Notes under the pieces: generated by a model
What the model was told of the DNA's origin: nothing
The model's database searches: none
What the model saw: the letters and a program-made list of their open reading frames with translations, nothing else
NCBI RefSeq assembly: GCF_001563265.1
Contig: NZ_CP005084.1
Span: 752,001 to 816,000, forward strand
Direction: 5' to 3'
From: Sphingobium sp. TKS
GTDB taxonomy: Bacteria; Pseudomonadota; Alphaproteobacteria; Sphingomonadales; Sphingomonadaceae
Length of the DNA: 64,000 nt
Translations under genes and position numbers: made by a program
Shown here: in pieces, positions 31,974 to 60,386 of the stretch
How the letters are laid out: every line of letters starts with the position of its first letter
Position numbering within the stretch: position 1 is the stretch's first letter

Positions 31974-32104
31974 GAAATTTTCCTGGCTGGGGACCGGTTC
32001 GGTCGGTCGGCATCCACCTGCGCCGGACATGCGACCGGACAGGGCGGATGCAAAAAGGGGCCGCAGCGCAAGGCGACAGCCCCAAGGATGATCAATGCAG
32101 GCTG

Positions 32105-34123: not shown

Positions 34124-34155
34124 GGAATAGTTCTCCTGGCGAGGGAACCTGACCA

Positions 34156-35052: not shown

Positions 35053-35058
35053 CACAGG

Positions 35059-43985: not shown

Positions 43986-44552
43986 ATGAGCGTCTCTCCC
44001 CAACGACGCGCGTCCCTCGACGATGACGACGCAAATAGCGCAGCCCCTCCCACCCATGATTTTGCAGACGTGTACCGGCGGGAAAAGCCCCGTCTCCTTC
44101 GCTATTTCCTGCAAAAGCTGGGAAATCGCTCGGATGCTGACGATATGGCGCAGGAAGTAATGACTAGGTTCCTGGGCGCCACGCCTCCGGTCGCGGTGGT
44201 AACCCCGCGGGCCTATATCACCCGCATCGCCACGAACATGCTGCGGGATCGCGCCGAACGGGGATCGACGCGCCTGTCGCAGCTGTCGGTATCCCTCGAC
44301 GAAGGATTGCACAAATCCAACGACATCGACCCGCATCGTGAAGTCGAGGCGCGGCAGGAGATCCAGCGCTGGCGAGCGATCTTGCGGCAACTGCCGCCGC
44401 GCACCCTGGAAATTTTCCTTCTCAATCGTGTCGAAGGCTATAGCTATCGGGAGATAGCGACTGATCTGAGGCTCCCCTTGTGGAGGGTGCAAAAGCATAT
44501 GTTGAAGGCCATCCGGCATATCGCCGCCAATATGGGAGGCGATCATGAATAA
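43986..44552 (+). CDS. ECF sigma factor, FecI-like
   Basis: 188 residues. Region 2 is FADVYRREKPRLLRYFLQKLGNRSDADDMAQEVMTRFL; region 4 is LRQLPPRTLEIFLLNRVEGYSYREIATDLRLPLWRVQKHMLKAI. Expected to direct polymerase to the TonB-receptor/isopeptidase genes when the anti-sigma partner releases it. ATG 43986 has GAGAA upstream; ATG 43956 is an alternative. It overlaps the FecR gene by 8 bp. Confidence 0.92.
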   Translation: MSVSPQRRASLDDDDANSAAPPTHDFADVYRREKPRLLRYFLQKLGNRSDADDMAQEVMTRFLGATPPVAVVTPRAYITRIATNMLRDRAERGSTRLSQLSVSLDEGLHKSNDIDPHREVEARQEIQRWRAILRQLPPRTLEIFLLNRVEGYSYREIATDLRLPLWRVQKHMLKAIRHIAANMGGDHE

Positions 44553-45516
44553 ACTCTCATGGTGGGATCGCCGTGCCGCTTCGCGATGGCTTATGAAAAT
44601 GCAATGCGACCCTGACAGGCATCGCGCGGGTCTCCGCCGGTGGATGGCAGCCAAGGATGGCCGTCAACATTTCTATGAAAAATTGTCGGCCAGCGTCGGC
44701 GTCGCAGCCGGCGCCGCGGCCGTTGCGCCCATGCATGTCGAGAAGGGCGTCGCGCAAATGCCAGGATGGCGGCCTGCGCTTGCCGCGGCAACCGTCATGA
44801 CCCTGATCACCGCCGCCCTGGTCATGATGTTCTTCTACGCCCCATTCGCGCGCACGGATGCTCTGGGCGGCGGCAAGCTCGCAACGAGGATCGGCGAAGT
44901 ACGCGAAGTCCGGCTGGAGGATGGATCGACGCTCATCCTCGACACCGGAACGAGCATCAATGTCGATCTCTCGGCGGAGCAACGTGTTGTAAGCCTGGAA
45001 CGCGGGCGGGCAAGGTTCAGGATCGCGCATGATGCCGCGCGACCGTTCATCGTGCGCTTCGGCCAGAATGAAATCCTGTCCCCCGGCACGATATTCGATG
45101 TGACCTATGGCCATCGTATCGCCATTCATCTCCTTGAAGGAAGCGCCGACGTGAAGGTGCATGGATGGCGTTCCAGTGCTCGCTCCGAGCGACTCTTTCG
45201 TCTCCATCCCGGGGAGCAATTAGCCTTCCTTGATGGACAAGCCATGTCGCCTTCTGTCATGTCCGCAAAACCTACCGACGAGCAATGGGTCAGCGGCGTG
45301 AAAGATCTAGATGATGTTCCGATCAGCGAGGTAATCGCCGAAGCCAACAGTTACAGCACGACGCAGATCGTGCTCGCTGATCCAGGGCTTGGCAGCCGGG
45401 AGATATTCGGCTCGGTTCACATCCGCGACATTGACGCCGTGGCGGAGGCAATTGCCGCATTCCTGGAGGCGAGGATCGATCGTTCCCATCCAGGAAAATT
45501 GATCATCACCAAATAA
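44545..45516 (+). CDS. FecR-family anti-sigma/sigma regulator
   Basis: 323 residues. The N-terminal cytoplasmic part (AASRWLMKMQCDP, RRWMAAKDGRQHF) binds the sigma factor; one membrane span (TVMTLITAALVMMFFYA, about 93-109); the periplasmic FecR domain has IGEVREVRLEDGSTLILDTGTSINVDLSAEQRVVSLERGRARF. The end contains a secretin-like STN-binding region. It relays receptor occupancy from the outer membrane to FecI. Confidence 0.92.
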   Translation: MNKLSWWDRRAASRWLMKMQCDPDRHRAGLRRWMAAKDGRQHFYEKLSASVGVAAGAAAVAPMHVEKGVAQMPGWRPALAAATVMTLITAALVMMFFYAPFARTDALGGGKLATRIGEVREVRLEDGSTLILDTGTSINVDLSAEQRVVSLERGRARFRIAHDAARPFIVRFGQNEILSPGTIFDVTYGHRIAIHLLEGSADVKVHGWRSSARSERLFRLHPGEQLAFLDGQAMSPSVMSAKPTDEQWVSGVKDLDDVPISEVIAEANSYSTTQIVLADPGLGSREIFGSVHIRDIDAVAEAIAAFLEARIDRSHPGKLIITK

Positions 45517-45610: not shown

Positions 45611-48205
45611 ATGGGTTTCGGCAAGACGGGATTTCTGATTGGCGCAGCGACCGCCCTGGTCGCGATAAGTCCGCATGTCCTGGCTCAGGACAGCGAAAAG
45701 CGATCCTATGATCTTCCGGCGCAGGATCTGAAATATGCGCTTCGTGCCGTTGCCCGCAAGGACGGCTATCAACTGATAGCGGATTCAAGAGCACTTCGGG
45801 GCAAGCAGGCAAAAGCCCTCAAGGGCGCCTATACAGTCAGCGAGGCTGTCAGCCTCCTTGTCGAGGGCAGCGACCTCATAGCGGAAGTCCGCAACGGTTC
45901 GATCTTCGTTCGGGGGCGAGGCGAACCATCGCGGGAGGCGATAAACGGCACGGCGGAAAATAATATCATCGTCACCGGGTCGCGCATTCGCGGTGGCGCA
46001 AGCGCGTCGCCCGTGATGACCAGGACACAGGATGATATTCGCACAGCCGGACTTTCCAATCTCGGCGATTTCGCCCGCAGCCTGCCTCAAAGCTTTGCCG
46101 GCGGGCAAAATCCCGGGGTCACGGTCGGCGTGGGAGGTATCAGTAACGAGAATGTAAGCTCCGCTTCCAGCCTCAATCTTCGCGGACTTGGTCCCGATGC
46201 CACGCTGACACTACTGAATGGCCGACGCATCGCCTATAATGGCGTGGCGCAGGCCATCGATATTTCCTCCATTCCCCTGGGCGCGGTCGATCGCGTGGAA
46301 ATCATCACCGATGGTGCTTCTGCCGTTTACGGTTCGGACGCGGTCGCTGGCGTCGCCAATATCATCCTCAAGCGCAGCTATGATGGAATGGAGGCATCCG
46401 CCCGATTGGGCGCGGCAACCGATGGCGGCGACGAGCAGCAGCAATATAGCGTGGTGGCGGGAAAGACCGGACGCAATCTCGGCTTCATGTTCACCTATAG
46501 CTATGACCGCAGCACGGCCATAAAGGCCGGCGACCGTTCATTCACCAACAACGCCTTTCCCAACACGACCATTCTCCCGGCCATGAGACAGCATAGCATA
46601 GTGGCGACCGGATATTGGGAACCCACCGACCACCTCACCATCAGCACCGACGCGCTTTTCAGCAATCGTCATTCCATCACCATTCAGCCGCTTATCAGCA
46701 ACGATTATCGGGATCGAGGATATCGCCGGACACCGCGGAACCAATCCTGGTCAATATCCCCAAAAATAGAATGGAAGCTGCCCGCCGACTGGCTCGCCAC
46801 ATTCATGGGTACCGCAGCACAGGACAAGCTTGAAATCAACTCGCGCCTCTACACAGCAGGTCTGCTGAATTTCGCCTCGGTCGGCAGCTATACCAACAAG
46901 TCCCGCATATTGGAGATGAACCTGGAGGGCGCACTCGTCGATCTGCCGGCTGGCGACTTGCGACTCGCCCTCGGTGGCGGCTACCGATCGAACAGGCTGA
47001 TCGCCGATCTCCAGACGGAAAGAGCGACCGGGACAACGCCTACGGTACAATTTTCAAAAAATCGCAGCAGCTATTACCTCTTTGGCGAAGCCGCCATTCC
47101 GATCGTGGCGCCAGAGCAGGACATTGATTTCATTCATGCGCTGTCTCTCAGCGCCGCAGCGCGCTATGAAAGCTATTCGGGCGGAATGGGGCATGTCACG
47201 ACGCCCAAATTGGGACTCGTCTACGCCCCGTCGAAAGATATCAATCTCAAATTTTCATGGGGCCGCTCGTTCAAGACACCGACGCTCTACCAACAGTTTC
47301 TCGATTATACGGCGCAGTTGGTGCCGATCAGTGATTTTGGCGGCAGTGCCTACCCCGCTTCAGCTACGGCGCTCTACATCTCTGGTGGCAATGCTGATCT
47401 CAGGCCCGAGCGGGCCACCACAATGGCCGCGACGTTTGAGATACATCCGGCCGCGCTGCCTGGGCTTAAGATGAGCACAAGCCTCTTCCACATCCGTTAC
47501 AAGAACAGGATCGCCACGCCGATCGCCTCGACGACCGGTCTATTGTCCAACCCCGCCTATCAGTCCCTGGTCAACCTTAGTCCCACCGAGGCACTCATCG
47601 AAGCTTTCATATCGGGATCTCCCACAGGTCTTACGAACCTCACCGACGCGCCTTTCAATATCGACAATGTGGCGGCTATCGTCGACAGCCGATACGTCAA
47701 TATCGCCCAGCAGACAGCGAAAGGGATCGATCTCGACATAAGCTATTCTGTCAGATTGGCCGCTGGGGATATGATCCATCTGACGGGAAATCTGACCTAT
47801 CTCGAGAGCCGCCGGAAAGTCACTCCCGTATCCGCCGCGGTCGATACGGCCGGCACCTTGTTTTTCCCGCCGCATTGGCGCGCGCGAGGGGGCGCGGACT
47901 GGTCTCATGGCGGTTTCAGCCTGGGGATATTCGGCAATTATATCGGCGGAATCAAGGATCAACGGCTGATGGCCGCCTCATCGATCGACGGCATGACCAC
48001 CGTCGACATGTCCGCGCGATACCGCACCTCCGATGACAGCGGTATCCTCAACGGAATCGAAATCAGCGCTGCAGCACTCAATATCTTCAACGACAAGCCG
48101 GATCGGATCCAGACGACAGCTCGCTACTATCCGACCTTCGACTCCACCAACTATTCCGCAATGGGGCGCTTCATCAGCCTAACGGTGACGAAGAGGTTTC
48201 AATGA
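45611..48205 (+). CDS. TonB-dependent receptor with STN signalling domain
   Basis: 864 residues. Signal peptide (to about AQD), STN domain at about 30-95 (YDLPAQDLKYALRAVARKDGYQLI...YTVSEAVSLLVEGSDL), plug (IIVTGSRIRGG, NLRGLGPDATLTLLNGRRI, VDRVEIITDGASAVYGSDAVAGVANIIL), and a 22-strand barrel ending SLTVTKRF with terminal aromatic. The STN domain signals to FecR. In this locus it probably imports or senses the lasso peptide. GGGGGAAG precedes ATG 45611. ATGA overlap with the isopeptidase. Confidence 0.95.
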   Translation: MGFGKTGFLIGAATALVAISPHVLAQDSEKRSYDLPAQDLKYALRAVARKDGYQLIADSRALRGKQAKALKGAYTVSEAVSLLVEGSDLIAEVRNGSIFVRGRGEPSREAINGTAENNIIVTGSRIRGGASASPVMTRTQDDIRTAGLSNLGDFARSLPQSFAGGQNPGVTVGVGGISNENVSSASSLNLRGLGPDATLTLLNGRRIAYNGVAQAIDISSIPLGAVDRVEIITDGASAVYGSDAVAGVANIILKRSYDGMEASARLGAATDGGDEQQQYSVVAGKTGRNLGFMFTYSYDRSTAIKAGDRSFTNNAFPNTTILPAMRQHSIVATGYWEPTDHLTISTDALFSNRHSITIQPLISNDYRDRGYRRTPRNQSWSISPKIEWKLPADWLATFMGTAAQDKLEINSRLYTAGLLNFASVGSYTNKSRILEMNLEGALVDLPAGDLRLALGGGYRSNRLIADLQTERATGTTPTVQFSKNRSSYYLFGEAAIPIVAPEQDIDFIHALSLSAAARYESYSGGMGHVTTPKLGLVYAPSKDINLKFSWGRSFKTPTLYQQFLDYTAQLVPISDFGGSAYPASATALYISGGNADLRPERATTMAATFEIHPAALPGLKMSTSLFHIRYKNRIATPIASTTGLLSNPAYQSLVNLSPTEALIEAFISGSPTGLTNLTDAPFNIDNVAAIVDSRYVNIAQQTAKGIDLDISYSVRLAAGDMIHLTGNLTYLESRRKVTPVSAAVDTAGTLFFPPHWRARGGADWSHGGFSLGIFGNYIGGIKDQRLMAASSIDGMTTVDMSARYRTSDDSGILNGIEISAAALNIFNDKPDRIQTTARYYPTFDSTNYSAMGRFISLTVTKRFQ

Positions 48206-50400
48206 TCCGCGCGATCAAGGGTCTGACGCTTTCGACAGCAGCGCTGGCCTTTGCCGCCGGCACGCCCGCCCTTGCCGACGTGCCGGCGGATTGCAGCGAT
48301 CTGAAACCGGATGCCGTCTCCCACGAAACAGACACCCAGCAGGCGATCACGCCAGAGAAGCTGCTTCGACTGCGGGATGTAGGACTGCCCGCCGCCGCGG
48401 CCGTCTCCAGGCACGGGGCGATAACCGTTTCGCCAAACGGGAAATTGGTCGCCTTTCAAATCCGTCGCGTCGATCGGACGGCGAGTGCCTATTGCCTCGG
48501 CATGTTCGTCACAGCCCTCAACGGCGCGCATAGACTGATCGCGATGGACAGAGGCGGCGAACTCATCCGGATGACGATCGAGCGGACCGGCATTACCCGT
48601 TTCCCCACTGGGGTACCCCAGCTCATCACGCCACATTGGTCGCCCGATAGTCGCTGGATTGCCTATCTCAAACGCATCAATGGCGTGACACAGATATGGC
48701 GCGCCCGGGCAGACGGCCAAGGCGCCGAGCAGCTTTCCTCTTCGCTGGACGACATAGAGGATCTGGGGTGGTCGCCCGATGGAACGACGATCATTTTCGC
48801 GAGCCGGCCGGATTATCGCAAGATCCAGCAGCAGATCGACGAAGAGGGCGAGGCCGGCTTTCATTATGATGCCCGGTTCGTTCCCAAGGCAAGCCCCCGG
48901 CCCTTTCCTTATGCCCCCATCGATCGCGCCTATCTTGCAATCGATGTCGTATCCAGGGCGGCCCGTCCCGCCACGCACGAGGAAATCAATCTGCTGCAAC
49001 TGCAGAACGACAGAGCAAAACCGGTCGGCGCCAATCTCTTCGCGCACGGCCCAGGCGGCGCACGCGCCTGGACCGCCATTCGGCCATCGAGCGGCTACAT
49101 GCCCCAATTTGATCTCCATGTCGTGCTTGCATCGGGAGAGCAGTTCAATTGCCGCTTTGACACTTGCGAGGGCATCGTAGGCCTATGGTGGCCAGTGGGC
49201 GGCTCGAGCCTCCTTTTCCTGCGCCGGGAAGGCTGGGGTAACAGCCAGCTCGGTCTGTACCGATGGAAACCAGGCCCTGCCAGGAGACCGGTTAGGCTGT
49301 TCGTGACAGACGATATGTTGGCAAGCTGCGAACTGGTGGGTGAGCAGCTGCTATGCCTTCATGAAGCCTCCAACCAGCCGAGCCGGCTTGTGTTCGCCGG
49401 TCTTGACGGGCATCTGGAGCCGGTGGTCGACCTCAATCCGGAGTTCAGGGCGTTGACGTTCGGACCCACCCGCCGCCTGAAATGGCGCAATGCCTTTGGC
49501 GTCCAAACCTTCGGCGATCTCGTCTTGCCGCCCGACTATGACGGGAAGCGACGGCTCCCCCTCATCATCGTCCAATATGACAGTCGCGGATTCCTGCGCG
49601 GCGGCACGGGCGACGAATATCCGATCCAGCCGCTCGCAGCGCGCGGTTTTGCGGTATTGAGTTTCGAACGACCGCGCTTCACCGGGTTCGCTCGCCCCGC
49701 GAAGGATGGTGATGAATTGTTCCGGCATAATCTGGAGGGATGGTCGGATTTGCGCAGTGTCCTCTCATCGCTCGAAACCATCACCGATCAGCTTGTCACG
49801 CAAGGGATTGCCGATCCCGCGAGAGTGGGCATTGCTGGCCTCAGCGACGGCACAAGGAACATCCAATATGCGTTGGTCAACAGCGACAGGTTCGCGGCAG
49901 CTTCCGTCAGCAGTTCCTTCGAGGAGCCGGGCACCTTCCTGCCTCTCGCCGGCCCGGCCGGTGCGAACAGCTATGTCGCGTCCGGCTATCCCCGGATGGA
50001 GGAGATGGCACCGGATTTCTGGAATTGCTATTCGCTGGTAAGGAATGCCGCGCGTCTTCGCACGCCGGTCCTCATGCAGCTTTCCGATGATGAATATCTG
50101 GGGGCACTGGAACCTCTCGCCGCCTTGCAAGACAAGGGCATTCCCAGCGCGCTCTACGTCTTTCCTGGCGAGCATCATGTCAAATGGCAACCGCGCCATC
50201 GTCTCGCCGTCTATTACAGGAATATCGCCTGGTTCGAACATTGGTTGATGCCGGATCATCCCTCTTCGCTTGCCGCCAAATGGCTACCAGCCGACATCGC
50301 GCCATCGACTGTGCTTTCTCGCGCGAGGGGAGACGTCGCCGCACCGGTCCAATGCCGGGCCCAGGCCTCCGCATCCGCGAGCGCCAGCAGGCGCAGATAG
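48202..50400 (+). CDS. Atxe2-family lasso peptide isopeptidase
   Basis: 732 residues, signal peptide (to about ALAD), so periplasmic. An N-terminal beta-propeller-like region (HWSPDSRWIAYLKRING, LGWSPDGTTIIFAS) precedes an alpha/beta-hydrolase end: nucleophile in GLSDG (Ser548), acid in LSDDEYLGAL (about Asp629/630), histidine in GEHHVKW (His658/659). Members cut the ring isopeptide bond and linearise the lasso. Coupled to the receptor gene. The last 145 bp (tail SASASASRRR) overlap the cyclase gene on the other strand. Confidence 0.9.
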   Translation: MIRAIKGLTLSTAALAFAAGTPALADVPADCSDLKPDAVSHETDTQQAITPEKLLRLRDVGLPAAAAVSRHGAITVSPNGKLVAFQIRRVDRTASAYCLGMFVTALNGAHRLIAMDRGGELIRMTIERTGITRFPTGVPQLITPHWSPDSRWIAYLKRINGVTQIWRARADGQGAEQLSSSLDDIEDLGWSPDGTTIIFASRPDYRKIQQQIDEEGEAGFHYDARFVPKASPRPFPYAPIDRAYLAIDVVSRAARPATHEEINLLQLQNDRAKPVGANLFAHGPGGARAWTAIRPSSGYMPQFDLHVVLASGEQFNCRFDTCEGIVGLWWPVGGSSLLFLRREGWGNSQLGLYRWKPGPARRPVRLFVTDDMLASCELVGEQLLCLHEASNQPSRLVFAGLDGHLEPVVDLNPEFRALTFGPTRRLKWRNAFGVQTFGDLVLPPDYDGKRRLPLIIVQYDSRGFLRGGTGDEYPIQPLAARGFAVLSFERPRFTGFARPAKDGDELFRHNLEGWSDLRSVLSSLETITDQLVTQGIADPARVGIAGLSDGTRNIQYALVNSDRFAAASVSSSFEEPGTFLPLAGPAGANSYVASGYPRMEEMAPDFWNCYSLVRNAARLRTPVLMQLSDDEYLGALEPLAALQDKGIPSALYVFPGEHHVKWQPRHRLAVYYRNIAWFEHWLMPDHPSSLAAKWLPADIAPSTVLSRARGDVAAPVQCRAQASASASASRRR

Positions 50401-52076
50401 TCATCATCGCGCTGCGGCCCCTCATAGGCCAGATAGGCCGACACCGCTTCGCGATCGATCACATGATGCTCCGCCAGCAGACCATCCAGCAGCATGTCCC
50501 GATATTGGCTTCGGTAGGTATCGAGCAGTTCAATACAAAAAGCGGACGGACCGCCCTTCCGGACCCGGCGCATATTATCATCGCCAAGAATCTGGCGATA
50601 GGCCTGGCGGGCAACCGCTCGGTTGATCCCGCCCGAAATCCAGAGCCAGCTGGGAATGGAAAGGCAGAATTCGACAATGGGCTGAGACAATAGCGGACAG
50701 ACCAGTTCCAGTTCATCGTCCCGCGCATAGCCCTCGGTGAACCGCTGCACCCGCGTCGCCCATATACCATGGATGATGCGGCCACGAGCAAGACCCGCCG
50801 GCGCATCAAACCAGGGATGCGCGTCGAACATTTCCCGGCTCGCATCGCGCGCGACCAGGAATCGGTCTTCTATCTTCATGGCGATGGCCGCCGGCGAACT
50901 ACCCCTCTTGCGGCGGAGGGCGGACAGCACCTGCGGAATGCTGCTGTCGGTCATGCGGCAAACATCGGCGAGGGTTTGTAGCAGGCCGCCGCGAGCGCCC
51001 CGCGTTTCCCAACGGTCCAGAATTGGCGTCACATTCTGCATGAAGCAGAATACCGCATCACCGCCATTCCCACGAAACAGGGTCTTGCTTCCCACAGCGC
51101 GCGCAAGCTCAAGGAGGATATGGTCATAGCTCTGGAGAAAGGGTTCGCCCGTGGGCCGCGCCTGATGCGCGGCGCTGGGACGCGCCGGATCGACATGCCG
51201 GGCAGCATAGAGTGCGCTGTCGAAGGGCAAGCCAAGCCTCAGGCATACCCCGCGCGCATAGCTACGTTCATCGCCATCGGGGTGACTGGTCGCAATGCTG
51301 ATACCATGGGCGCCAAATTCGACCTCGCGCAGTGCCGCGGCGATGATCGATGAATCGAGTCCCCCAGAGACACCGATCAAGATAGGGCTTGCCGTGGATC
51401 GGCCCAAAGCTTTGATGCATTTTTCGGTGATGTCCCGCAAGCGAAGCGCCGCCTGATCCAGGCCCCCTTCAAATCTGCGGGCGGCATGCTTCCATGGTGA
51501 CCATAGCGATGTTTCCGTCGCCATCGCTCCCTGCCAATCCAGCACGAATCCCGGCAGCAATTCCCTTGCACCGACCAATGCCGTCGAGGGGGATCGCTGA
51601 TTGGGATATCGGAACTGATGGAGAATATAGTCATAATTGACCGCGGCGCGCAACAAGCCTGCGGCAACGAGCAATCCGACATCCGATGCCGCCGCGTGGC
51701 AGCCGTCCCGGCTCACATGGTAGCAGGGCAAGCCGCCTGAAGGATCGCGCAGGATCTGTGCGCCTTCGTTTCCATGCTTCACCGCGACATATTGCCCCCA
51801 TCCCTGCTCGAGCAGATCGGACAGAGGGGCCGTTCGCTCATTGCCATCGGTCCATTTCGCGAGGTCCATCGGCCGGAAGTCAGTTTGCGAAAAAATGCGC
51901 CCGATGCCGATGAGGTTCACCCCTTCGACAATCTGCACAGGCGTGTCGTTCGACAGGAAGAGCATGAGTTGGTCGGATTGCCAGGCAAGCTTCAGTCCCC
52001 GGCGACCGACAGACGCGGCAATGGTACGCCGCCGGTCCGAACAATCGATGCTGGCGATGAGATAGCGCGCCGCCAT
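50256..52076 (-). CDS. lasso peptide macrolactam synthetase (C protein)
   Basis: 606 residues, asparagine synthetase B-like. The N-terminal part resembles a degenerate glutaminase domain without the catalytic Cys2 (starts MAARYLI). The synthetase half has the PPi loop GVSGGLDSSIIAAAL near residues 235-249 and FRGNGGDAVFC. It adenylates the ring Asp and closes the macrolactam onto Gly1. ATG 52076 overlaps the B stop (TGATG); an in-frame GTG lies one codon upstream. Confidence 0.92.
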   Translation of the reverse strand: MAARYLIASIDCSDRRRTIAASVGRRGLKLAWQSDQLMLFLSNDTPVQIVEGVNLIGIGRIFSQTDFRPMDLAKWTDGNERTAPLSDLLEQGWGQYVAVKHGNEGAQILRDPSGGLPCYHVSRDGCHAAASDVGLLVAAGLLRAAVNYDYILHQFRYPNQRSPSTALVGARELLPGFVLDWQGAMATETSLWSPWKHAARRFEGGLDQAALRLRDITEKCIKALGRSTASPILIGVSGGLDSSIIAAALREVEFGAHGISIATSHPDGDERSYARGVCLRLGLPFDSALYAARHVDPARPSAAHQARPTGEPFLQSYDHILLELARAVGSKTLFRGNGGDAVFCFMQNVTPILDRWETRGARGGLLQTLADVCRMTDSSIPQVLSALRRKRGSSPAAIAMKIEDRFLVARDASREMFDAHPWFDAPAGLARGRIIHGIWATRVQRFTEGYARDDELELVCPLLSQPIVEFCLSIPSWLWISGGINRAVARQAYRQILGDDNMRRVRKGGPSAFCIELLDTYRSQYRDMLLDGLLAEHHVIDREAVSAYLAYEGPQRDDDYLRLLALADAEAWARHWTGAATSPLARESTVDGAMSAGSHLAASEEG

Positions 52077-52738
52077 CACAGGCTCACTATCGGACTGAAC
52101 GTCCGAATCCGCTCAACCCGATCGTTCAGAAGGAGATCCCCTCGCTGGACCCAGGCATGAGCGGAAAATGGGCTGGCCGTAACGCCAAGCACGAGCGAGG
52201 CAGCAATATTGCGACGGCGCAGCAGTCTTGCAAGGGCAAGAGACCGAACGAGGCATTGGTCCGCCCCGGTCATGATAAAAGCCGATTGCGCGAAAGCCCA
52301 TCCCAGGCGGTTCGCGATTTCACCAGCCCTCAGAGGTTCACAGGCCTTCACCGGCGATGCGGCGACCTCCTTTGCGAGGCAATGCATGCCATGATGCCGC
52401 AAGTCCCGGCAAGCCTGCCACTGCGACCAGGCCACGCGCGCGGTCAAATAGCTGCTTGCTCGTTGGGGTCGCTCGTCGAGAAGGGATCTGATCGGCATTA
52501 TGGGTACTGCGCGAAGGGATTCCTCCGCGGCTTTCTCCGATGGCTCGATTAGCCGGGCATCTCGCAGCCGCTGCACCTCGCGCAGGTTGATGGAGCCGTT
52601 CTCTCCCCGAACGATAGTACGAAATGCCCGATTCCAGGTCGAAGGAATCGTGAAATACCGGCCAGACGACACATCCAGAAAGATGATATGCTGACCAAGA
52701 TCAGAAAAATGCAAATTCTCTCGCAAAGCGTAAGTCAT
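52076..52738 (-). CDS. lasso peptide leader-binding/protease B protein (fused RRE-B2)
   Basis: 220 residues. Residues about 1-80 form a PqqD-like recognition element (YALRENLHFSDLGQHIIFLDVSSGRYFTI); residues about 110-220 are a transglutaminase-like cysteine protease with Cys in GADQCLVRSLALARLL, His in SAHAWVQ and Asp in LLLND. It binds the leader and cuts after it. ATG 52738 is chosen with GAGGTG upstream; the in-frame ATG 52771 falls inside the hairpin at 52758-52790. Coupled to the cyclase. Confidence 0.9.
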   Translation of the reverse strand: MTYALRENLHFSDLGQHIIFLDVSSGRYFTIPSTWNRAFRTIVRGENGSINLREVQRLRDARLIEPSEKAAEESLRAVPIMPIRSLLDERPQRASSYLTARVAWSQWQACRDLRHHGMHCLAKEVAASPVKACEPLRAGEIANRLGWAFAQSAFIMTGADQCLVRSLALARLLRRRNIAASLVLGVTASPFSAHAWVQRGDLLLNDRVERIRTFSPIVSL

Positions 52739-52757: not shown

Positions 52758-52790
52758 GGGAGGGCACGCATAGCCTATGTGTGCCCTCCC
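52758..52790 (-). terminator. strong hairpin between lasso precursor and B gene
   Basis: GGGAGGGCAC / GTGCCCTCCC perfect arms, continued inward by CATAG / CTATG, giving a near-perfect stem of about 15 bp with a tiny loop. It lies 9 bases past the precursor stop and 20 bases before the B start. It may act as a leaky terminator or mRNA stabiliser that raises the precursor level relative to B and C. Confidence 0.75.
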
Positions 52791-52798: not shown

Positions 52799-52933
52799 TC
52801 ACTCGTCCAATATACCCATGCCGGTCAGGGGCGACTGGTCCACATCGCGCGCCTTGCCCTCGATCCCCTTGGTCTGCTCGACAGCCGATCCGAGGTCGAT
52901 CAGCGCTTCATTCCGTTCGAAGTCACGTTCCAT
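52799..52933 (-). CDS. lasso peptide precursor (A peptide)
   Basis: 44 residues, the peptide substrate of the locus. Leader (1-22) MERDFERNEALIDLGSAV, then EQTK: the LIxLG-A-T-K pattern with Thr at the penultimate position matches sphingomonad/Asticcacaulis leaders. The core (23-44) begins GIEGKARD, so Gly1 and Asp8 can form an 8-residue macrolactam ring; it continues VDQSPL and ends TGMGILDE. The C-terminal GILD-acidic ending recalls syanodin-type peptides. AAGGAA six bases before ATG 52933. It stands directly upstream of B and C on the same strand. Confidence 0.88.
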   Translation of the reverse strand: MERDFERNEALIDLGSAVEQTKGIEGKARDVDQSPLTGMGILDE

Positions 52934-53002: not shown

Positions 53003-53033
53003 CATATACGTTCCCAATTTGACAACATATATG
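53003..53033. promoter_or_regulatory. inverted repeat upstream of lasso precursor
   Basis: Arms CATATA (53003-53008) and TATATG (53028-53033) in an AT-rich patch 70-100 bp upstream of the precursor ATG and just downstream of the GntR gene. It may be the GntR operator or part of the precursor promoter; no -35/-10 pair is clear. Confidence 0.35.
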
Positions 53034-53098: not shown

Positions 53099-53734
53099 TC
53101 ATTCTATGAATCCATTCTTCATCATGGCCGAAAAAATCGTCTCTACGTTCAACAAACGTCGGCGATGATAATGCCAAAGGGCCGTTCTGATGGAATGTTT
53201 GTTCCTCGAACGCACGAGATTCCATAGGGATTCCAACTCGGAAAGACACCGCGGCAGCACATTTTCATGGATCCGAATCAAGTGCAGCCGCGCTTCCAGG
53301 GCAAGGACAGCGTGGAGATGTTCCGGATTATGCGAACATGCCGCCAATGACGCGAAGAGCTCATCAGCCAGGTTCGCCAGATGATGATGTTCATCGCTTG
53401 TCTTACCTTGATCATAGACCGGAAACTCGCCGATCTCGATGGGGTCATTGATAGCGCGAACAATGATACGAAGAAGATCGCCGTGCCAGGCATAAAAACA
53501 GCTTATGCGGTCATGCGTGAGAGGAGGAACGGCAAATCCCCCTCCGCCTTGCATCTCGAGAAGACGTTCGCCGACCATGCGCAATATTGCGTCGCGTACC
53601 GGAGAGACACTGGTTCCAGCGCTATCAGCAATCTGGCTCAGTATAAGAACTGCTCCTGGGCGCAATTCTCCTACCATGATTTGCCGCTTCAATTCGCGAT
53701 AGACGCGATCGGCCGTAACAGCATCGGGCGACAT
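53099..53734 (-). CDS. GntR-family (FCD-type) transcriptional regulator
   Basis: 211 residues. The N-terminal winged helix is ADRVYRELKRQIMVGELRPGAVLILSQIADSAGTSVSPVRDAILRMVGERLL; the C-terminal helical part resembles an FCD ligand-binding domain (HHHLANLADELFASLAACSHNPEHLHAVLALEARLH, then HYHRRRLLNVETIF). It lies directly upstream of the lasso precursor on the same strand and probably regulates it. GGGAGG ten bases before ATG 53734. It follows the XRE gene by 5 bp. Confidence 0.88.
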   Translation of the reverse strand: MSPDAVTADRVYRELKRQIMVGELRPGAVLILSQIADSAGTSVSPVRDAILRMVGERLLEMQGGGGFAVPPLTHDRISCFYAWHGDLLRIIVRAINDPIEIGEFPVYDQGKTSDEHHHLANLADELFASLAACSHNPEHLHAVLALEARLHLIRIHENVLPRCLSELESLWNLVRSRNKHSIRTALWHYHRRRLLNVETIFSAMMKNGFIE

Positions 53735-53739: not shown

Positions 53740-54159
53740 TCAGGCCTCCCTGTCGATGCCCTCATCCGTAAGTGGAATCGGGATTGAACGGAGGAATGGT
53801 TTCAGACGATAGCTCGCAATAAACTCGATGCATCCAGCCTCCAGTTCATGCATGTCCTCATCGAAAATCTGTCGTGGAAAGTGCATCTGATGCTCCAGAA
53901 ACAACATTGGCAAGAGGAGATGCGATGCCGACAATCCAAGACCGTGCGCGCACCGCAAATGGTCGTCGAGCCGGGACTTGGGACTTCCCGATTCGACTTC
54001 CCGGAGCCAGCGTTCACCCATCCCAACCTGGGCTGCCAGCTGCTTCTGCGTCATGCGCTTGTCCCGCCGCCTTTCCTCGATGCGGCGGCCCGAGATCTGT
54101 TTGACCTCGGCTAGAATAGCGGCGCGGCTACCCGGCCGCCTGCTCTGAGTCGACATCAT
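53740..54159 (-). CDS. XRE-family helix-turn-helix regulator
   Basis: 139 residues; HTH is GRRIEERRRDKRMTQKQLAAQVGMGERWLREVESG. The C-terminal part (MLFLEHQMHFPRQIFDEDMHELEAG) is unassigned. GGGAGAACCTG precedes ATG 54159. In an operon with the GntR gene, so it may be a second control layer for the lasso locus. A candidate operator is at 54207-54228. Confidence 0.85.
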   Translation of the reverse strand: MMSTQSRRPGSRAAILAEVKQISGRRIEERRRDKRMTQKQLAAQVGMGERWLREVESGSPKSRLDDHLRCAHGLGLSASHLLLPMLFLEHQMHFPRQIFDEDMHELEAGCIEFIASYRLKPFLRSIPIPLTDEGIDREA

Positions 54160-54308: not shown

Positions 54309-54728
54309 TCACTTATCTGCCAGAAGATCGCTCATTCGGCTATACGCCGCTCGCAGGGTCTTGTCCTCGCTGGCGGCCATGAGCGCGATACAGGCTGCAT
54401 AAAGGGCGTTCTTTGTTGGCCGATCGCCAAGATGATCCGATCTTTCCAGGCGATCGCTGATCTTGCCCGCGATTCGCTGCAATCGATCGGACGCCCCGAC
54501 AAAATGCTCCCTTTTCCCGATCAGCCGTCGCAAATGGGGGAGTTCGAGTTCGGCAGCAATCTCCGATGCATCCGACGCTTCCGCGATCAATATGGCTACA
54601 TACAGTGTCGAGCCATAGGAAATCAGGCTGTTCGCGAGTTTTGCCAGACGTGCATGGCAAACCAGGAAGAGATCGGTGCCCTCAGGCGAAAGGCATAGTT
54701 TGTACGTTCTCGATTGGCGTTCTGTCAT
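54309..54728 (-). CDS. hypothetical helical protein
   Basis: 139 residues: YKLCLSPEGTDLFLVCHARLAKLANSLISYGSTLYVAILIAEA then a helical end (NALYAACIALMAASEDKTL). Not recognised; no clear membrane topology. ATG 54728 follows GGGAGACATC; ATG 54764 upstream has no ribosome site. It is the last minus-strand gene before the plus-strand tra operon. The 295 bp to 55024 hold that operon's promoter; no element was pinpointed. Confidence 0.6.
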   Translation of the reverse strand: MTERQSRTYKLCLSPEGTDLFLVCHARLAKLANSLISYGSTLYVAILIAEASDASEIAAELELPHLRRLIGKREHFVGASDRLQRIAGKISDRLERSDHLGDRPTKNALYAACIALMAASEDKTLRAAYSRMSDLLADK

Positions 54729-55023
54729 GATGTCTCCCTCATCCGATTCGAGGTTGGTACTCATGATGATGACGACCCGAACGGAGAATAAAGCCGATTT
54801 TTGACAAGGAAAGCGGCATTTATATGCCGCTTCCGGAAGATGAATGCCGCAATCGGCACAACAGTGCCCTGCCCCTTGCGCGCCTTTTCAAGCTGTGAAC
54901 AACTCGTCTCACGGTCGATGACTGGGAAGCATGTTCCGGCAATTTGTACAGAGCTTCCGCCCACCGATCCCGCCCTCAAAAAAAGGCGTCCGAGAGGATT
55001 TGCCGCTTGCCTGGAGTACCGTC

Positions 55024-55293
55024 ATGGTCCAATCTCCGCCTGTCCTTGGCGCCTGCCTGAGCCTGGCGCTCGCCGCAAACCCGGCGAGCGCAAAACCACT
55101 CCGCTTGGCTTCGACGGATCTGCCCGACCGACTGCGCATCATTCAGGCGAGCGACGCATTCCAGATCGTTGCCCTCCCAGCTGCCGAACCGGCATTCACG
55201 CCGCCCGGCAGCGCAATGGCCGTCGGCAGCAGCATCCGCATCGATGCCGATATTGCTCGCGCGATCACGCAGAACAGCGGAGGCACGCAATGA
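55024..55293 (+). CDS. small secreted protein leading the tra operon
   Basis: 89 residues with a signal peptide (VLGACLSLALAANPASA). The mature part (LASTDLPDRLRIIQASDAFQIVALP) is unassigned. GGAG eight bases before ATG 55024. Its stop overlaps the DsbC-like gene (ATGA), so it belongs to the transfer operon, presumably in the periplasm. Confidence 0.6.
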   Translation: MVQSPPVLGACLSLALAANPASAKPLRLASTDLPDRLRIIQASDAFQIVALPAAEPAFTPPGSAMAVGSSIRIDADIARAITQNSGGTQ

Positions 55294-56084
55294 GCCGCCG
55301 GATGAGTTTCTCACAGGCGGCCGGCGCGGCCCTGCTCCTAGGCGTCAGCATCGGCGGCGCCCAAGCCCAGGCAAAGCCCGACGATGTGCAGCTGCTGCAA
55401 AAAGCGGCGCAGGACGCCGAGCAGAAGCTCCGCCAGAGCTTCACCAACCTTCAGTTCGAGGGGTTCGAGCCAGCGCCGGTCAAGGGGCCGATCTACCAGG
55501 CAAGCGCGGGCAGCCGCATGCTCTATTATGCTCCGGAGAGCGAGCATATCCTTTTCGCGACGGTCTATGACCGCAACGGCGTCAATGTGACGGCGCTGGC
55601 CCAGGATGCGCGAGCGCAGCGGCAGCTTGCCGCGATCGATCCCAAACAGGCGCTGGAGATTGGCCCAAAGGACGCGCCTTCGGTGATCGAATTCACCGAT
55701 CCCGATTGTCCCTATTGCCGCGCGCTCGATCGCTTCTGGACGGCCAAGGCAGCGGAAGGAAAGCCCGTGCGGCGCCTTGTCTATTTCGTCTCAGGCATCC
55801 ACCCCGAGGCCGCGACCAAGGCGGAACATATCCTCTGCGCGCCCGACAGGGAGGCCAGCTTCAAGGCCCTCTATGCCGGCGCGAAGCCCCCTGCCCTGCT
55901 GACATGCCCGGAAGGTCGCGCCAAGGTGGAAGCCGACGCGGCACTGGTGAAAAAGGTGGGCGTCAGCGGTACGCCGACCCTCATCGTGGGCGGCAAGATC
56001 ATCTCGGGTTTCGACCAGGCGGAGATCGAGGCGTTTCTCGGACAAGCCTATGCGGCGAAGGCGTCCACCCATGCGCAGCGCTAA
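55290..56084 (+). CDS. DsbC/TrbB-like periplasmic disulfide isomerase
   Basis: 264 residues with signal peptide (cleavage near AQA). Thioredoxin fold with active site CPYC (Cys140, Cys143) in FTDPDCPYCRALD and cis-proline loop GVSGTPTLIVGG. Such proteins fold cysteine-containing secretion components; TraV below has cysteines. Second gene of the operon. Confidence 0.88.
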   Translation: MSRRMSFSQAAGAALLLGVSIGGAQAQAKPDDVQLLQKAAQDAEQKLRQSFTNLQFEGFEPAPVKGPIYQASAGSRMLYYAPESEHILFATVYDRNGVNVTALAQDARAQRQLAAIDPKQALEIGPKDAPSVIEFTDPDCPYCRALDRFWTAKAAEGKPVRRLVYFVSGIHPEAATKAEHILCAPDREASFKALYAGAKPPALLTCPEGRAKVEADAALVKKVGVSGTPTLIVGGKIISGFDQAEIEAFLGQAYAAKASTHAQR

Positions 56085-56701: not shown

Positions 56702-56968
56702 ATGGACGAACGCCTGCCCCAGTATCTGCATCGGCCGGTCCAGATCCTATGGTTCGGATCGGACGAGTTCATCCTGGTGGTCTCGACCATCTTCGTCGCC
56801 GTCATCGTCGGCGGGCTGATCGGATGGGCGCTCATCCTTGCCCTTCTCCTTTTCATCCCCTGGAAGCGCAGCAAACCCCGCGGCTTTCTGCCGCATCTCG
56901 CCTGGCGCTGGGGCCTGCTTGGCTTTCGCCATTATCCGGGTCCGACCCAGACCCGCTTTTATGAGTGA
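56702..56968 (+). CDS. traL: conjugal transfer protein TraL
   Basis: 88 residues. PQYLHRPVQILWFGSDEF then a long hydrophobic hairpin (ILVVSTIFVAVIVGGLIGWALILALLLFI) and RGFLPHLAWRWGL is the TraL pattern; inner-membrane part of the F-type secretion channel, equivalent to VirB3. AGGAGGAGAAGG precedes ATG 56702. Confidence 0.9.
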   Translation: MDERLPQYLHRPVQILWFGSDEFILVVSTIFVAVIVGGLIGWALILALLLFIPWKRSKPRGFLPHLAWRWGLLGFRHYPGPTQTRFYE

Positions 56969-56979
56969 GGCTTAAAGCC

Positions 56980-57618
56980 ATGTCGCTCTTCCCAAACCGA
57001 ACTGGCCGCGAGGTCGATCCACTCCTTGGCAAACCGCCAAGCTTCGGCATTCACCGCTATCTCCAGGGCTCCTCCAATCTCTTCGAGGAGAACCGCCTGC
57101 TCAAATTCGCGATTGTGGGCCTGTTCGGCATCACGGCGGTGCTGGGCGCGGTGGTCTATTCGACCGACCAGAACCGGCGCACCGTGGTCGTGCCCTTTGG
57201 CACGGGCGGCGATCTCTATGTGACGGGCTCGAAACCCTCGACGGACTATCTGCGCACCATGACGCGCAACATCGTCGCGCTCTCGGGCACCTATTCCGCC
57301 TATTCGGCAGATCCGCAGTTCCAGGAGCTGCTCTCGATCGTCCATCCGAACGCCTATAACAGTATGCGCGACAGCCTCAACGCAGTGCTGGACGAGCTTT
57401 CCAAAAACCCGACCCTGTCGATCGCCACCTATATCCGTCCCGACCAGCCGGTCAGCTGGACCGACAGGGACATCATCGTTCCGGTCGAGAAGGTCCGCAT
57501 CATCGGCGGCGTGATCCGCAAATTCCGGGGCACGCTGCGCATCGGCTACGGCGTCGAGAACGGCCGCTTCTGGATCACCCGCCTTTCGGAGGAAAAATTC
57601 GATGCCGAGCTTCGGTAA
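56980..57618 (+). CDS. traE: conjugal transfer protein TraE
   Basis: 212 residues. One N-terminal membrane span (FAIVGLFGITAVLGAVVY) and a periplasmic domain with TVVVPFG, YLRTMTRNIVALSGTYS and WTDRDIIVPVEKVRIIGGVIRKF; F-type counterpart of VirB5/VirB8-class scaffold. ATG 56980 (GAGG nine bases upstream) preferred to GTG 56965. Overlaps traK by 17 bp. Confidence 0.9.
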   Translation: MSLFPNRTGREVDPLLGKPPSFGIHRYLQGSSNLFEENRLLKFAIVGLFGITAVLGAVVYSTDQNRRTVVVPFGTGGDLYVTGSKPSTDYLRTMTRNIVALSGTYSAYSADPQFQELLSIVHPNAYNSMRDSLNAVLDELSKNPTLSIATYIRPDQPVSWTDRDIIVPVEKVRIIGGVIRKFRGTLRIGYGVENGRFWITRLSEEKFDAELR

Positions 57619-58369
57619 ACCCCTGCGCGCGTCCGCCGCCCTGCTGGCCATGATCGCGTCGGCGCCGGTCTTCGCCCAGTCCATCGTCGCGCTGCCCGAT
57701 CAGACCAGCACGATCCGGCTGTCGAACCGCGACGTCAATCATGTGATCTGTACAGGCGGCGAGATCGAGGACGTCAAATTCTCGGCGGAAAAGGCGATCG
57801 CGGTCGAGAAGGGCGGCGCGGACGCCTGGATCAAATTCTTGGTGAAGGAAGTCGATGACGCCGGTGCCGTCACGCGCAGCTATGTGACCGCGCCGTCCGA
57901 ATTCTTCATTTCCTGCAATGGCGCCATCTATCCGCTCTATACCGAGCCCTCGGACATTCCCGCCCAGACCGTCACCCTGGTGCCGGGCAGCGCGCAGCGC
58001 GCCAAGGCCAATGACGAATTGCTGGGGCCGCTGGTCGAGGAGGAGCGCGCCGTCTCGATCACGCTCGCTATGCTCCAGGACCGTATCCCGGCGAGCTTCA
58101 CCGCCGTCGCGCCCAAGGCCGAGCGGGTCGTGCTGCCCTCCCTTCCCGCCGCGCGAATCATCGAACGCCGACGGGTCGAGATAGAGGGTTCCGGTCTTTC
58201 GGCATCGGAATATCGGGTCGAAGCGGACGCGGACCTCGGCCTTGATGAGCGGCTGTTCCTCGACCGCGCCTTTGGTGCCCGCGTCTTTGCGGTCAGCGCC
58301 GATCGTCTTTCGCTCAAAGCCGGAGAGACCGCCCGCCTCATCATCGTACGGCGGGGAGCAAACCAATGA
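57602..58369 (+). CDS. traK: conjugal transfer protein TraK (VirB9-like)
   Basis: 255 residues with signal peptide (cleavage near FAQ). STIRLSNRDVNHVICTGG and SEFFISCNGAIYPLY are TraK-like; the C-terminal part is beta-rich. It forms the outer ring of the core complex with TraB and TraV. ATGA overlap with traB. Confidence 0.9.
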   Translation: MPSFGKPLRASAALLAMIASAPVFAQSIVALPDQTSTIRLSNRDVNHVICTGGEIEDVKFSAEKAIAVEKGGADAWIKFLVKEVDDAGAVTRSYVTAPSEFFISCNGAIYPLYTEPSDIPAQTVTLVPGSAQRAKANDELLGPLVEEERAVSITLAMLQDRIPASFTAVAPKAERVVLPSLPAARIIERRRVEIEGSGLSASEYRVEADADLGLDERLFLDRAFGARVFAVSADRLSLKAGETARLIIVRRGANQ

Positions 58370-59721
58370 ACGAGAAGAAGCAAGGCGGGAAAGAAACCCC
58401 GCAGGATCTTGGCGCCCCGATCAAAGGCTTTTCTCGCCCCCCGAAAGATCAAAATGAGGCCAGGGACGGAAAGCAAGGGCAAGCAAAGGATCAGGGCGCC
58501 GTTCGCGGCCCGACCCTGCTCGACCTGAAAACCCACTGGCGCGCCATGTCGGCAAGACAGAAACTGCGCGCCAAGCAGGTGGGCGTGGGAGCAGCGGTCG
58601 CGATCCTGGGCTATGGTCTCTACACAGCGTCCAGCGGTTCCTCCGACGACAAGCCCGATCTGCCCGCAGCCTCGAAGCTGGACATGGGCGCGGGCCTGCG
58701 CGGTGATAGTCTGGAAACCAAGCTGCGCGGTGACCTGCAAAAGGTGCTCGACGGCCAATCCCTGCTGGGCGATCGCATCACCGCGATCGAGGAGGGCAAG
58801 GTCATGCCCGGCAGCAAGGTCGGCGGCACGTCGACCGATGGTGGCGATCTGCCGTCGGCCATGACGGGCACATTGCCGGCCTTCCCGCCGCCACCCAGCG
58901 ACGCGGAGCTGGACAGCGCGATGGGGTCGATCCCGCCGCCTGTACCGCCGGTCGCTCCGGCCGCGCCGCCCGCGCCCCCAGTCGAGAAGACCGTCGGTTC
59001 GATTGGCGCTGCCACCAGCGCCATCATCCCCGCCGCAAACAAGGAGGGCGCCGGGTCCGGCAACGGAAAAAAGTCGCGGACCATCTATTTACCGCCTGGT
59101 TTCATGAAGGCACGGCTCCTGACCGGGATCGACGCACTGGCCAGCCGGGACGCGACCTCGAACCCGGAACCGCTGATCGCCCGCGTGCAGGCCCCCGCCG
59201 TGCTGCCCAATGATGTGAAAGCCAATCTTGCCGGCTGCTTTGTCATCGGCAATGCCACCGGCAGCCTCGCCAAGGAACGGGTCGAGGTCCAGCTGGTGTC
59301 GCTCTCCTGCGTCGATTTCGACGAGCGGTCCGTCGTCGATCAGCCCATCAAGGGCTTCTTCGTCGACACCGATGGAAAGAAGGGGCTTTCGGGCAAGGTC
59401 GTGACCCGCGCCGGCGCGGCGCTGGCCCGATCCTTCATCGCCGGGACCGTGAGCGGCTTTACCAGTTCAGTCGAAAACAGCTTCGGGGACCTCTCCACCT
59501 CCGCCCTGGGTTCGGTCCGCACGCTCGATGCGACCGATGCCGCAAAGAGCGGCATTGCCGGCGGCCTTTCCAAATCCTCCGACAAGCTCACCGATTTCTA
59601 TCTCGACCTTGCGCGCCAGGCTGGCCCCATCGTCGAGGTCGGCGCCGCCAAGGAGGTGGTGGTGGTCATCCAGGAGGGCGTGACCCTCGACATCAAACCC
59701 AGCGCAGGGAGCAAATTCTGA
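58366..59721 (+). CDS. traB: conjugal transfer protein TraB (VirB10-like)
   Basis: 451 residues. One membrane span (about 67-84, VGVGAAVAILGYGLYTAS), proline-rich periplasmic stretch (SIPPPVPPVAPAAPPAPPVE) and TrbI/VirB10 C-terminal domain (IYLPPGFMKARLLTGIDAL, AGCFVIGNATGSLAKERVEVQL, VVVIQEGVTLDI). It spans the periplasm of the core complex. Stop shares a base with the traV start. Confidence 0.93.
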   Translation: MNEKKQGGKETPQDLGAPIKGFSRPPKDQNEARDGKQGQAKDQGAVRGPTLLDLKTHWRAMSARQKLRAKQVGVGAAVAILGYGLYTASSGSSDDKPDLPAASKLDMGAGLRGDSLETKLRGDLQKVLDGQSLLGDRITAIEEGKVMPGSKVGGTSTDGGDLPSAMTGTLPAFPPPPSDAELDSAMGSIPPPVPPVAPAAPPAPPVEKTVGSIGAATSAIIPAANKEGAGSGNGKKSRTIYLPPGFMKARLLTGIDALASRDATSNPEPLIARVQAPAVLPNDVKANLAGCFVIGNATGSLAKERVEVQLVSLSCVDFDERSVVDQPIKGFFVDTDGKKGLSGKVVTRAGAALARSFIAGTVSGFTSSVENSFGDLSTSALGSVRTLDATDAAKSGIAGGLSKSSDKLTDFYLDLARQAGPIVEVGAAKEVVVVIQEGVTLDIKPSAGSKF

Positions 59722-60386
59722 TGGCATATCGTCTTTTGAGGGGCATTCGCCCCATGCCTGACACGCCCGTTGGTGCTGCGCGCCGGGCTGGATCGCCAGC
59801 GCTGCTCGGCATGGCTCTGCTGCTCGCGGGCTGTTCCACCATTGGCTCGGTCATGTCGCCCTACAGCGAGAAGTTCAGCTGCAAGAATAGCGACCATGGG
59901 CAGTGCATCCATCCCGACAAGGCCTATGCCGATGCGGTGGCTGGCGTGCCATCCCGCTCCGATCCCGCGGTCACCCATGACAAGGCTCTTCTCAGCCAGG
60001 GAGACGGTACCGGGACAAGCAGTGCCACCAAGCGGGGCAAGACAGGCCCATCCCCCTATCTTGGCTATCGCGACAGCGTCTATCGGGAGTTGCAGGGCCT
60101 GGTCGATGCGCCGGTCACGCCGATGCTGCGCCCCGGCCGCACGGTGCGCACGCTGATCCTGCCCTATGCCGACCGCGAGCGGCCCGACCGGCTCTACATG
60201 CCGCGCTATGTCTATTCGATCCTCGAGAGGCCCCAATGGGTGGTGGGCGATTATCTGGTGAGCCCGGTCCAGTCCGCGACGGGCGTGCCGGTGCTGGAAC
60301 AGGTGAGGGACAAGGGCGCGTCCGACCGCGCCGTCGAGGGCGAGCCCGCCGATATCCCCGCTACGCCTGAGGAGGCACGGCCATGA
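59721..60386 (+). CDS. traV: conjugal transfer lipoprotein TraV
   Basis: 221 residues. Lipobox LLLAGC near residues 34-39, followed by STIGSVMSPYSEKFSCKNSDHGQCIHPDKAY, the cysteine pattern of TraV. Outer-membrane anchor of the core complex, equivalent to VirB7. The long pre-sequence suggests ATG 59754 may be the true start. ATGA overlap with traC. Confidence 0.88.
   Translation: MAYRLLRGIRPMPDTPVGAARRAGSPALLGMALLLAGCSTIGSVMSPYSEKFSCKNSDHGQCIHPDKAYADAVAGVPSRSDPAVTHDKALLSQGDGTGTSSATKRGKTGPSPYLGYRDSVYRELQGLVDAPVTPMLRPGRTVRTLILPYADRERPDRLYMPRYVYSILERPQWVVGDYLVSPVQSATGVPVLEQVRDKGASDRAVEGEPADIPATPEEARP

Follow-up and report, generated by a model that had tools for sequence, protein, structure and literature searches.

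The lasso precursor gene A of Sphingobium sp. TKS lies at 52799..52933 on the minus strand of the window, a term we use for the whole 64,000-nucleotide stretch of DNA that was analysed (positions 752,001 to 816,000 of contig NZ_CP005084.1). The gene runs from an ATG at 52933 to a TGA over 44 codons and comprises a leader (52868-52933), a core (52802-52867) and the stop codon (52799-52801), all on the minus strand, its 44-residue translation being the leader MERDFERNEALIDLGSAVEQTK followed by the core GIEGKARDVDQSPLTGMGILDE. An earlier note on this DNA, which gave no strand, had described a 44-codon lasso precursor frame with a good ribosome site and a position directly upstream of lasso B and C genes. 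That description was borne out: an AAGGA-type ribosome site precedes the start codon (...CTGAAGGAAGCAATC-ATG), genes B and C follow directly downstream by their profile matches, and the precursor scores 31.2 bits against the Pfam family PF24178 (Subterisin), above the cut-off of 27. The leader end EQTK and the 22-residue core given in the note match the translated frame, in which Thr is the penultimate residue of the leader and Gly1 opens the core, as expected of a lasso precursor, and Asp8 is the sole acid at core positions 7-9, where the ring acceptor is expected. For the cyclised core, a mass near 2282.12 Da had been proposed, and our recomputation gives 2282.1213 Da for the neutral form, with [M+H]+ at 2283.1285 and [M+2H]2+ at 1142.0679.

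A chance open reading frame might be suspected at this position, as the frame is short and its score against the NCBIfam family NF033522 (benenodin; 32.2 bits) is slightly under the cut-off of 33, but the PF24178 score, the conserved relatives, the hairpin and the B and C context make such an explanation extremely improbable. Our analyses confirm that 52799-52933 encodes a lasso precursor within a complete isopeptidase-type cluster, which is a known type, and the lasso finding by itself is a further example of it. The precursor was already present in the protein database with its Pfam domain, meaning that gene callers had caught it, and the remark in the earlier note that it would be easily missed by them therefore does not apply to this genome. 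It does apply to Sphingobium sp. RAC03, in whose record the precursor (L139) is unannotated yet the gene is present in the DNA, indicating that gene callers do miss some such genes. The first eight core residues had no match in a text search of the open literature, and neither had the first letters of syanodin, to which the earlier note had likened the C-terminal end of the core. Plasmids searched with the lasso region at near-DNA level, and with the precursor by tblastn, a method that is weak for short proteins, likewise returned no match.

Comparison with related precursors lent support to the predicted ring. The fetched loci gave 69 distinct related precursors, every one with a T-x-G at which the leader could be cut, and with each leader cut by rule at the first T-x-G, core position 8 is Asp or Glu in 67 of the 69. 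That shared acid supports the Gly1-Asp8 ring which the earlier note had predicted and which Asp8, as the only candidate at positions 7-9, also fits; the A product is predicted to be both ring-closed and threaded. An identical precursor occurs in Sphingobium sp. 15-1, where the surrounding 13.8 kb is 99.96% identical to the window, and this locus, being a near copy, provides no independent support. The nearest other core found, GIVGLSKDLDQSPLGGAGILDD, is from Sphingomonas sp. Ant H11 (L100): this full-length precursor from a different genus is 55% identical to A, has a 22-residue core and the same neighbouring genes, with LasC and IsoP 44 and 57% identical to those of the window, respectively, and a tra side that is alike as far as the locus extends. 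A second lasso cluster in the same genome as the window (G000 contig C1, 2256410-2258980; L033) has the core GLQSMGQPDELTGLAFGPGLDPE, with its acid at position 9, and no TraC within 15 kb among those listed.

Between A and B there is a stem-loop (52758..52790, RNA sense minus) of -28.7 kcal/mol, a value that 0 of 200 shuffles equalled. Each of the 69 distinct A genes of related loci likewise has a strong hairpin within 100 nt past its stop, the best 44-nt windows ranging from -22.5 to -37.6 kcal/mol (median -28.4), compared with a median of -16.6 kcal/mol for 345 windows further downstream and of -16.2 for the 69 stretches before A, of which 8.7% reached -22. Only 7 of 1380 shuffles were as strong as the observed hairpins. 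That the hairpin is common to the whole set suggests a stabiliser favouring the precursor message over the enzyme message, although it may be a terminator. The element is already known, as removal of a hairpin is given as a production strategy for astexin-1 in the portion of PMC7549694 available to us.

Gene B (52076..52738, minus) encodes the transglutaminase-like lasso B protease, with 75 bits against PF13471 and 70.5 bits, over the cut-off, against NF033537. Its start was placed at the second ATG (52738), which has its own GAGGTGG site, because the upstream ATG at 52771 falls within the stem-loop. The protein has Cys162, His194 and Asp206, an order we take to be that of its protease family. 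Gene C (50256..52079, minus) encodes the asparagine-synthase-like lasso C macrolactam synthetase (PF00733, 90.7 bits), with an SGGLDSS motif at 238. Both genes stand beside A, as expected of the lasso class, and are complete with the expected motifs; searches of the PDB with B and with C gave no match. On the plus strand, 48202..50400 encodes an AtxE2-type lasso isopeptidase that scores 771.6 bits against NF033523 (cut-off 400) and matches AtxE2 (5txc) over residues 48-685 with an E value of 5e-137. The GLSDG, DEYLGAL and EHHVKW motifs are kept, and S548, E631 and H658/659 make up, by sequence, a Ser-His-Glu/Asp triad. The start of the isopeptidase (48202-48280) appears by eye to be a signal-peptide-like stretch, which means that the enzyme may act in the periplasm. 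The genes for C and the isopeptidase run towards each other and share 145 bases (50256-50400), compared with 17 bases in plasmid pHR1a.

Adjoining the isopeptidase gene, and also on the plus strand, are genes for a TonB-dependent receptor with an STN domain (45611..48205; PF00593, PF07715, PF07660), a FecR-type anti-sigma factor (44545..45516; PF04773) and a FecI-type ECF sigma factor (43956..44552; PF04542, PF08281). Together with the isopeptidase these are on the opposite strand to A-B-C and converge on C. No exporter gene, ABC or other, was seen in the lasso cluster. With a GntR regulator before A, and with the TonB receptor and the sigma and anti-sigma factors next to the isopeptidase, the locus has the isopeptidase-type architecture as set out in the available text of section 12 of a review (PMC9266682). 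Based on the protein families and motifs, B would cut the precursor after EQTK and C would join Gly1 to Asp8, producing a 22-residue lasso peptide, while the stem-loop after A probably raises the A message relative to that of B and C. What is known of the other families suggests that, outside the cell, the STN-type TonB receptor probably binds the peptide, that the bound receptor would signal via FecR/FecI and import the peptide, and that the isopeptidase would then open its ring.

Beyond A, three genes that are all directed away from tra sit between the precursor and an operon of transfer genes: a GntR-family regulator directly upstream of A (53099..53734, minus; PF00392), an HTH regulator (53740..54159, minus; PF13560) and ORF151 (54309..54764, minus), a 151-residue protein with no Pfam domain and six relatives in the protein database. 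The tra operon is on the plus strand and begins with a small gene without a Pfam match (54931..55293), which has a counterpart at the same place in plasmid pCHQ1, and a gene for a DsbC-like thiol-disulfide protein (55290..56084; PF10411, PF13098). These are followed by TraE (56965..57618; PF05309), TraK (57602..58369; PF06586, PF23536), the TrbI-like TraB (58366..59721; PF03743), TraV (59721..60386; PF09676) and TraC (60383..62902; PF11130, PF19044). The operon carries on beyond the window with TraW, U, N, TrbC, F, H and G, and the presence of TraE, K, B, V, C, W, U, N, F, H and G identifies it, from its genes alone, as F-type (MPF_F). All 11 pCHQ1 tra queries, TraC included, were matched in G000:C2, and by these queries the operon is intact. 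Upstream of FecI there is an AbiEi/AbiEii type IV toxin-antitoxin pair (39582-41307), and in several other elements the FecI side is flanked by VapC or nucleotidyltransferase genes. Further away, at 27678-35055, are Strawberry-notch helicase, ParB-HTH and Toprim genes that look like the backbone of a mobile element.

The proximity of lasso and transfer genes, on which the earlier note had not commented, proved to be recurrent. Positions of the precursor family and of TraC (150 listed matches) were compared across one set of 94 genomes from the genus to which the window belongs, with 105 rows of precursor hits reduced to 102 loci after the merging of tandem precursors. At least 46 of the 102 lasso loci have TraC within 15 kb, and these linked pairs are divergent in 46 of 46 cases with a spacing of 7.0-10.6 kb, against approximately 1.7 pairs expected under uniform placement, an expectation that assumes a 4.8 Mb genome and disregards the clustering of mobile genes. 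A better control is provided by the TraC proteins of the same genomes, as linkage to a lasso locus is seen for 46 of the 78 low-scoring TraC listed and for none of the 72 high-scoring ones. Related genomes are not independent in these counts; L174, for instance, matches the window exactly in each of the 12 proteins compared and is counted among the 40 linked loci analysed below, and the core of L178 is that of the RAC03 plasmid locus L139. Additional linked loci that were missed by the Pfam precursor search are L188, L189 and, by coordinates, L057. The other 56 of the 102 lasso loci in the genus have no listed TraC within 15 kb. Outside the genus, at least 5 of 76 loci are linked, all back to back, and 71 of 76 are without a listed TraC, in a comparison of 83 lasso rows with 32 TraC rows hand-picked from lasso-hit genomes or the low-scoring class. 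A corresponding test for VirB4-like proteins, with 22 hand-picked rows, linked at least 6 of the 102 lasso loci.

The converse situation, tra operons without lasso genes, was also found. Of 20 unlinked TraC loci hand-picked from 32 listed, L188 and L189 held a lasso, L190 and L194 were too short and L191 ended at a contig edge beside HTH, leaving 15 in which a lasso gene was absent from the 14-17 kb read. These 15 loci indicate that the tra operon can do without a lasso cluster. Ten proteins scanned from the lasso slot of five such loci are a hydrolase, transposase, LysR, acetyltransferase, recombinase, thymidylate synthase, integrases, Ku and one protein without a match, a diversity in which no single replacement system is seen. 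ORF151 is present at 38 of the 40 lasso-linked loci analysed versus 2 of the 15 lasso-less loci. The existence of related tra operons without lasso genes would be expected if the lasso cluster were plain cargo, riding on conjugative elements with no part in transfer and placed beside tra merely because that spot is a tolerated site of insertion or recombination. We take this to be a real possibility, somewhat short of an even chance. Such a tolerated site does not readily account for the single orientation and narrow distance of all 46 linked pairs, or for the absence of lasso loci next to any of the 72 high-scoring TraC in the same genomes.

Lasso clusters on plasmids were found in several settings. 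The order tra-GntR-A-B-C-isopeptidase-receptor is present on the named plasmids pCHQ1, pBSY17_1 of Sphingobium sp. RAC03 and pHR1a of Novosphingobium resinovorum, the layouts of all three being window-like, with FecI/FecR not annotated and ORF151 unmatched in pHR1a. The stretch read of plasmid pDC02 of Rhizorhabdus wittichii contains a tra operon and no lasso genes. On the PP1Y plasmid Lpl the lasso genes come directly after a trb operon, which is another transfer type, and in Sphingomonas panacis they come after an F-type operon, at its TraG end. There were 26 plasmid records with a relative of C, of which 13 were viewed. Conjugation genes are within 14 kb of the lasso genes in five of these, and among the other eight, viewed over a 9 kb span that in one case was limited by the end of the record, none has conjugation genes and three have LuxI; both are absent within 9 kb at 5 of the 13 viewed loci. 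By coordinates, the lasso genes of four more of the 26 plasmids are 4-8 kb from a tra match. The FecI-FecR-TonB-isopeptidase set is also present in plasmid lasso clusters that have no conjugation gene within 9 kb, and such clusters favour the cargo explanation.

The recurrence of lasso loci beside LuxI is harder to reconcile with mere carriage. A LuxI-type synthase gene is no more than 16 kb away at 27 of the 102 lasso loci, compared with 1.3 expected. Eight of these 27, which do not include the window, are tra-linked. On four plasmids (L141, L206, L209 and L210) the order is lasso cluster, GntR, phytanoyl-CoA dioxygenase, LuxI, and in L141, L206 and L210 the next gene after LuxI is of the LuxR type.

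Analyses of sequence identity revealed that the lasso side of the linked loci is far more variable than the tra side. Median identities to the window were calculated for 40 of 51 linked loci (L034, L035 and L037 being tabulated but outside the medians) and were 86% for TraC, 73% for TraE, 64% for DsbC and 50% for HTH, versus 37% for ORF151 (38 loci), 36% for GntR, 30% for LasB, 33% for LasC (39 loci) and 39% for IsoP (37 loci). There was hardly any correlation between tra and lasso identity over 780 pairs of loci (rho 0.10). Among pairs with tra 95-99.5% identical, LasB/C were below 45% identical in 16 of 24, with the bin spanning 21 to 96%. Such near-identical tra genes beside divergent lasso enzymes argue for replacement of the lasso genes as a block, rather than for fast drift. 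DsbC is 73-80% identical in the 12 most extreme pairs, indicating that the edge of the exchange may fall within the genes that open the tra side. A LasC tree was built from 59 of 71 rows, the 12 omitted rows, of which 11 were tra-linked, having no usable hit or a frame below 400 residues. On this tree tra linkage requires at least 12 changes, five of which are forced by well-supported branches, although some rows scored as unlinked adjoin other transfer systems (L141, L142). Shuffled labels required 18.9 changes, and 2 of 500 shuffles were as low as 12. Linkage is thus more clustered on the tree than in the shuffles, consistent with its having been partly inherited and partly gained or lost, and its several changes are a further point in favour of plain cargo.

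The peptides of the linked loci are themselves diverse, as the 40 loci carry 42 cores, 35 of which are distinct. Linked elements that are resident in the same cell shared a lasso in 0 of 19 pairs (identity 21 to 49%), and a lasso was common to 19 of 684 pairs between genomes, a contrast that is suggestive of co-resident elements never sharing a lasso but is not significant. Many differing cores on a conserved backbone, and co-resident pairs with no lasso in common, might result from competition between elements, with the peptide acting for maintenance as a narrow bacteriocin that enters via the TonB receptor and harms element-free cells, and the isopeptidase conferring immunity. Also in line with this, isopeptidases act only on the peptides of their own clusters according to the part of PMC9266682 at hand. 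The same part of that review states, however, that known isopeptidase-type lasso peptides, astexin-1 excepted, are without antimicrobial activity, and describes their biology as enigmatic. In addition, the receptor sits inside the cassette itself, and the contrast between co-resident and other pairs lacks significance. We rate a role in competition as rather unlikely.

The regulatory region on the tra side was found to vary with the lasso genes. The window has a palindrome, AAGCGGCATTTATATGCCGCTT (54811..54832, no strand assigned), in the stretch that separates ORF151 from the divergently oriented tra operon, and this is a possible operator. It belongs to the first of two types, CGGCAY..RTGCCG (20 loci) and ACCGGAA..TTCCGGT (9 loci), and matches the former once, at 54814-54829. 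One or other type is present at 29 of 40 lasso-linked loci versus 0 of 14 lasso-less loci, although 29 of 40 is no independent count, as both patterns were written after inspection of the linked loci; neither type is present at the remaining 11. In a pattern-independent test, palindromes with an arm score of at least 9 were found in 57.5% of the 40 linked loci versus 1.25% of shuffles, and the lasso-less loci (14 of 15, as L193 had no HTH hit) gave 7% versus 0.7%. An HTH gene is also beside the tra operon at 14 of the 15 lasso-less loci; this, like the 11 linked loci with neither type and the lack of a motif shared with the region before A, speaks against a simple model. HTH proteins from loci with the same palindrome type have a median identity of 47%, compared with 34% across types, and in the pair L151 and L161, whose palindrome types differ, tra is 97% identical, HTH 42% and lasso 27%. 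As HTH and palindrome change with the lasso genes, the swapped block seems to come with a regulator and an operator of its own that reach as far as the tra side, and we infer that HTH binds at the tra-side palindrome. This covariation is not what would be expected of simple cargo, whereas the lack of a motif common to the stretch preceding A and that between tra and ORF151 (8.8 versus 8.5 for shuffles) is more easily understood on that explanation. Upstream of A, a different palindrome, CTTATAAG, was found at 20 of 40 loci, the window version being CATATATG at 53026, and this is plausibly a GntR site.

Taken together, these results point to the lasso set, GntR, HTH and ORF151 forming an exchangeable cassette at a fixed spot by the F-type tra operon. 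The cassette would be swapped in one piece, together with HTH and the tra-side palindrome, next to tra genes that remain almost unchanged. Leaving purpose aside, we consider it very probable that the locus specifies a 22-residue lasso product and is part of such an exchangeable cassette of sphingomonad conjugative elements. Among the open-literature papers listed, no title or start of an abstract describes this link between lasso clusters and conjugation genes, and the accessible part of PMC12715929 treats lanthipeptides, with lasso clusters there only beside phage defence. A fixed and exchanged place by the transfer genes, with a covarying regulator and palindrome, gives a direct genomic handle on the purpose of isopeptidase-type lasso peptides, and the location suggests that they could have a role in how mobile elements behave or compete.

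Tentatively, we propose that the lasso peptide is a recognition signal encoded by the element, which would inform cells of the element variant carried by neighbours and adjust transfer. Each variant would then have a peptide, a receptor, an isopeptidase and a tra regulator-operator pair of its own, exchanged together as a single specificity cassette. We call this the most likely purpose, though at well under even odds, and plain cargo is rated as likely, with competition as the next rival. The readings overlap somewhat, and carriage as plain cargo is compatible both with competition and with a carrier role. In such a carrier role, which we regard as improbable, the peptide would aid the TonB uptake of PAHs, other hydrophobic compounds or metals, as would suit catabolic elements. 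A carrier role has been proposed for sphingocin of Sphingomonas BPH, in which a transposon inserted in the lasso B gene was accompanied by an inability to use phenanthrene, a result that consists of one insertion mutant in the part of PMC11006600 available, and the FecI/FecR/TonB layout is siderophore-like in terms of the available part of PMC9266682. Nutrient or pollutant uptake would, however, leave the fixed place on the tra side, the change of regulator and the LuxI neighbours unexplained. If the recognition signal that we propose were true, it would give the isopeptidase-type lasso group a natural function.

The astexin, benenodin, subterisin and sphingopyxin clusters have in common with the window the precursor family, B, C, an AtxE2-type isopeptidase, a TonB receptor, FecI/FecR and a GntR regulator before A. 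The window differs from them in its tra adjacency with HTH, ORF151 and the palindrome, features that are unmentioned in the available part of PMC9266682. Plasmid pCHQ1 of Sphingobium indicum UT26S has the same gene order as the window from FecI to TraG, and its tra DNA is 78.7% identical over the aligned 60% of the query, whereas its LasC is 34.7% identical and its core is different. That core matches sphingonodin II. For the proposed signal, the closest parallel in function is PhrI of ICEBs1, an element-encoded signal peptide that curbs redundant transfer. PhrI is a linear pentapeptide of a Gram-positive element that acts through a Rap receptor and has no homology with the lasso cassette, and the likeness is a functional analogy only: in both, a peptide is encoded beside the control of transfer.
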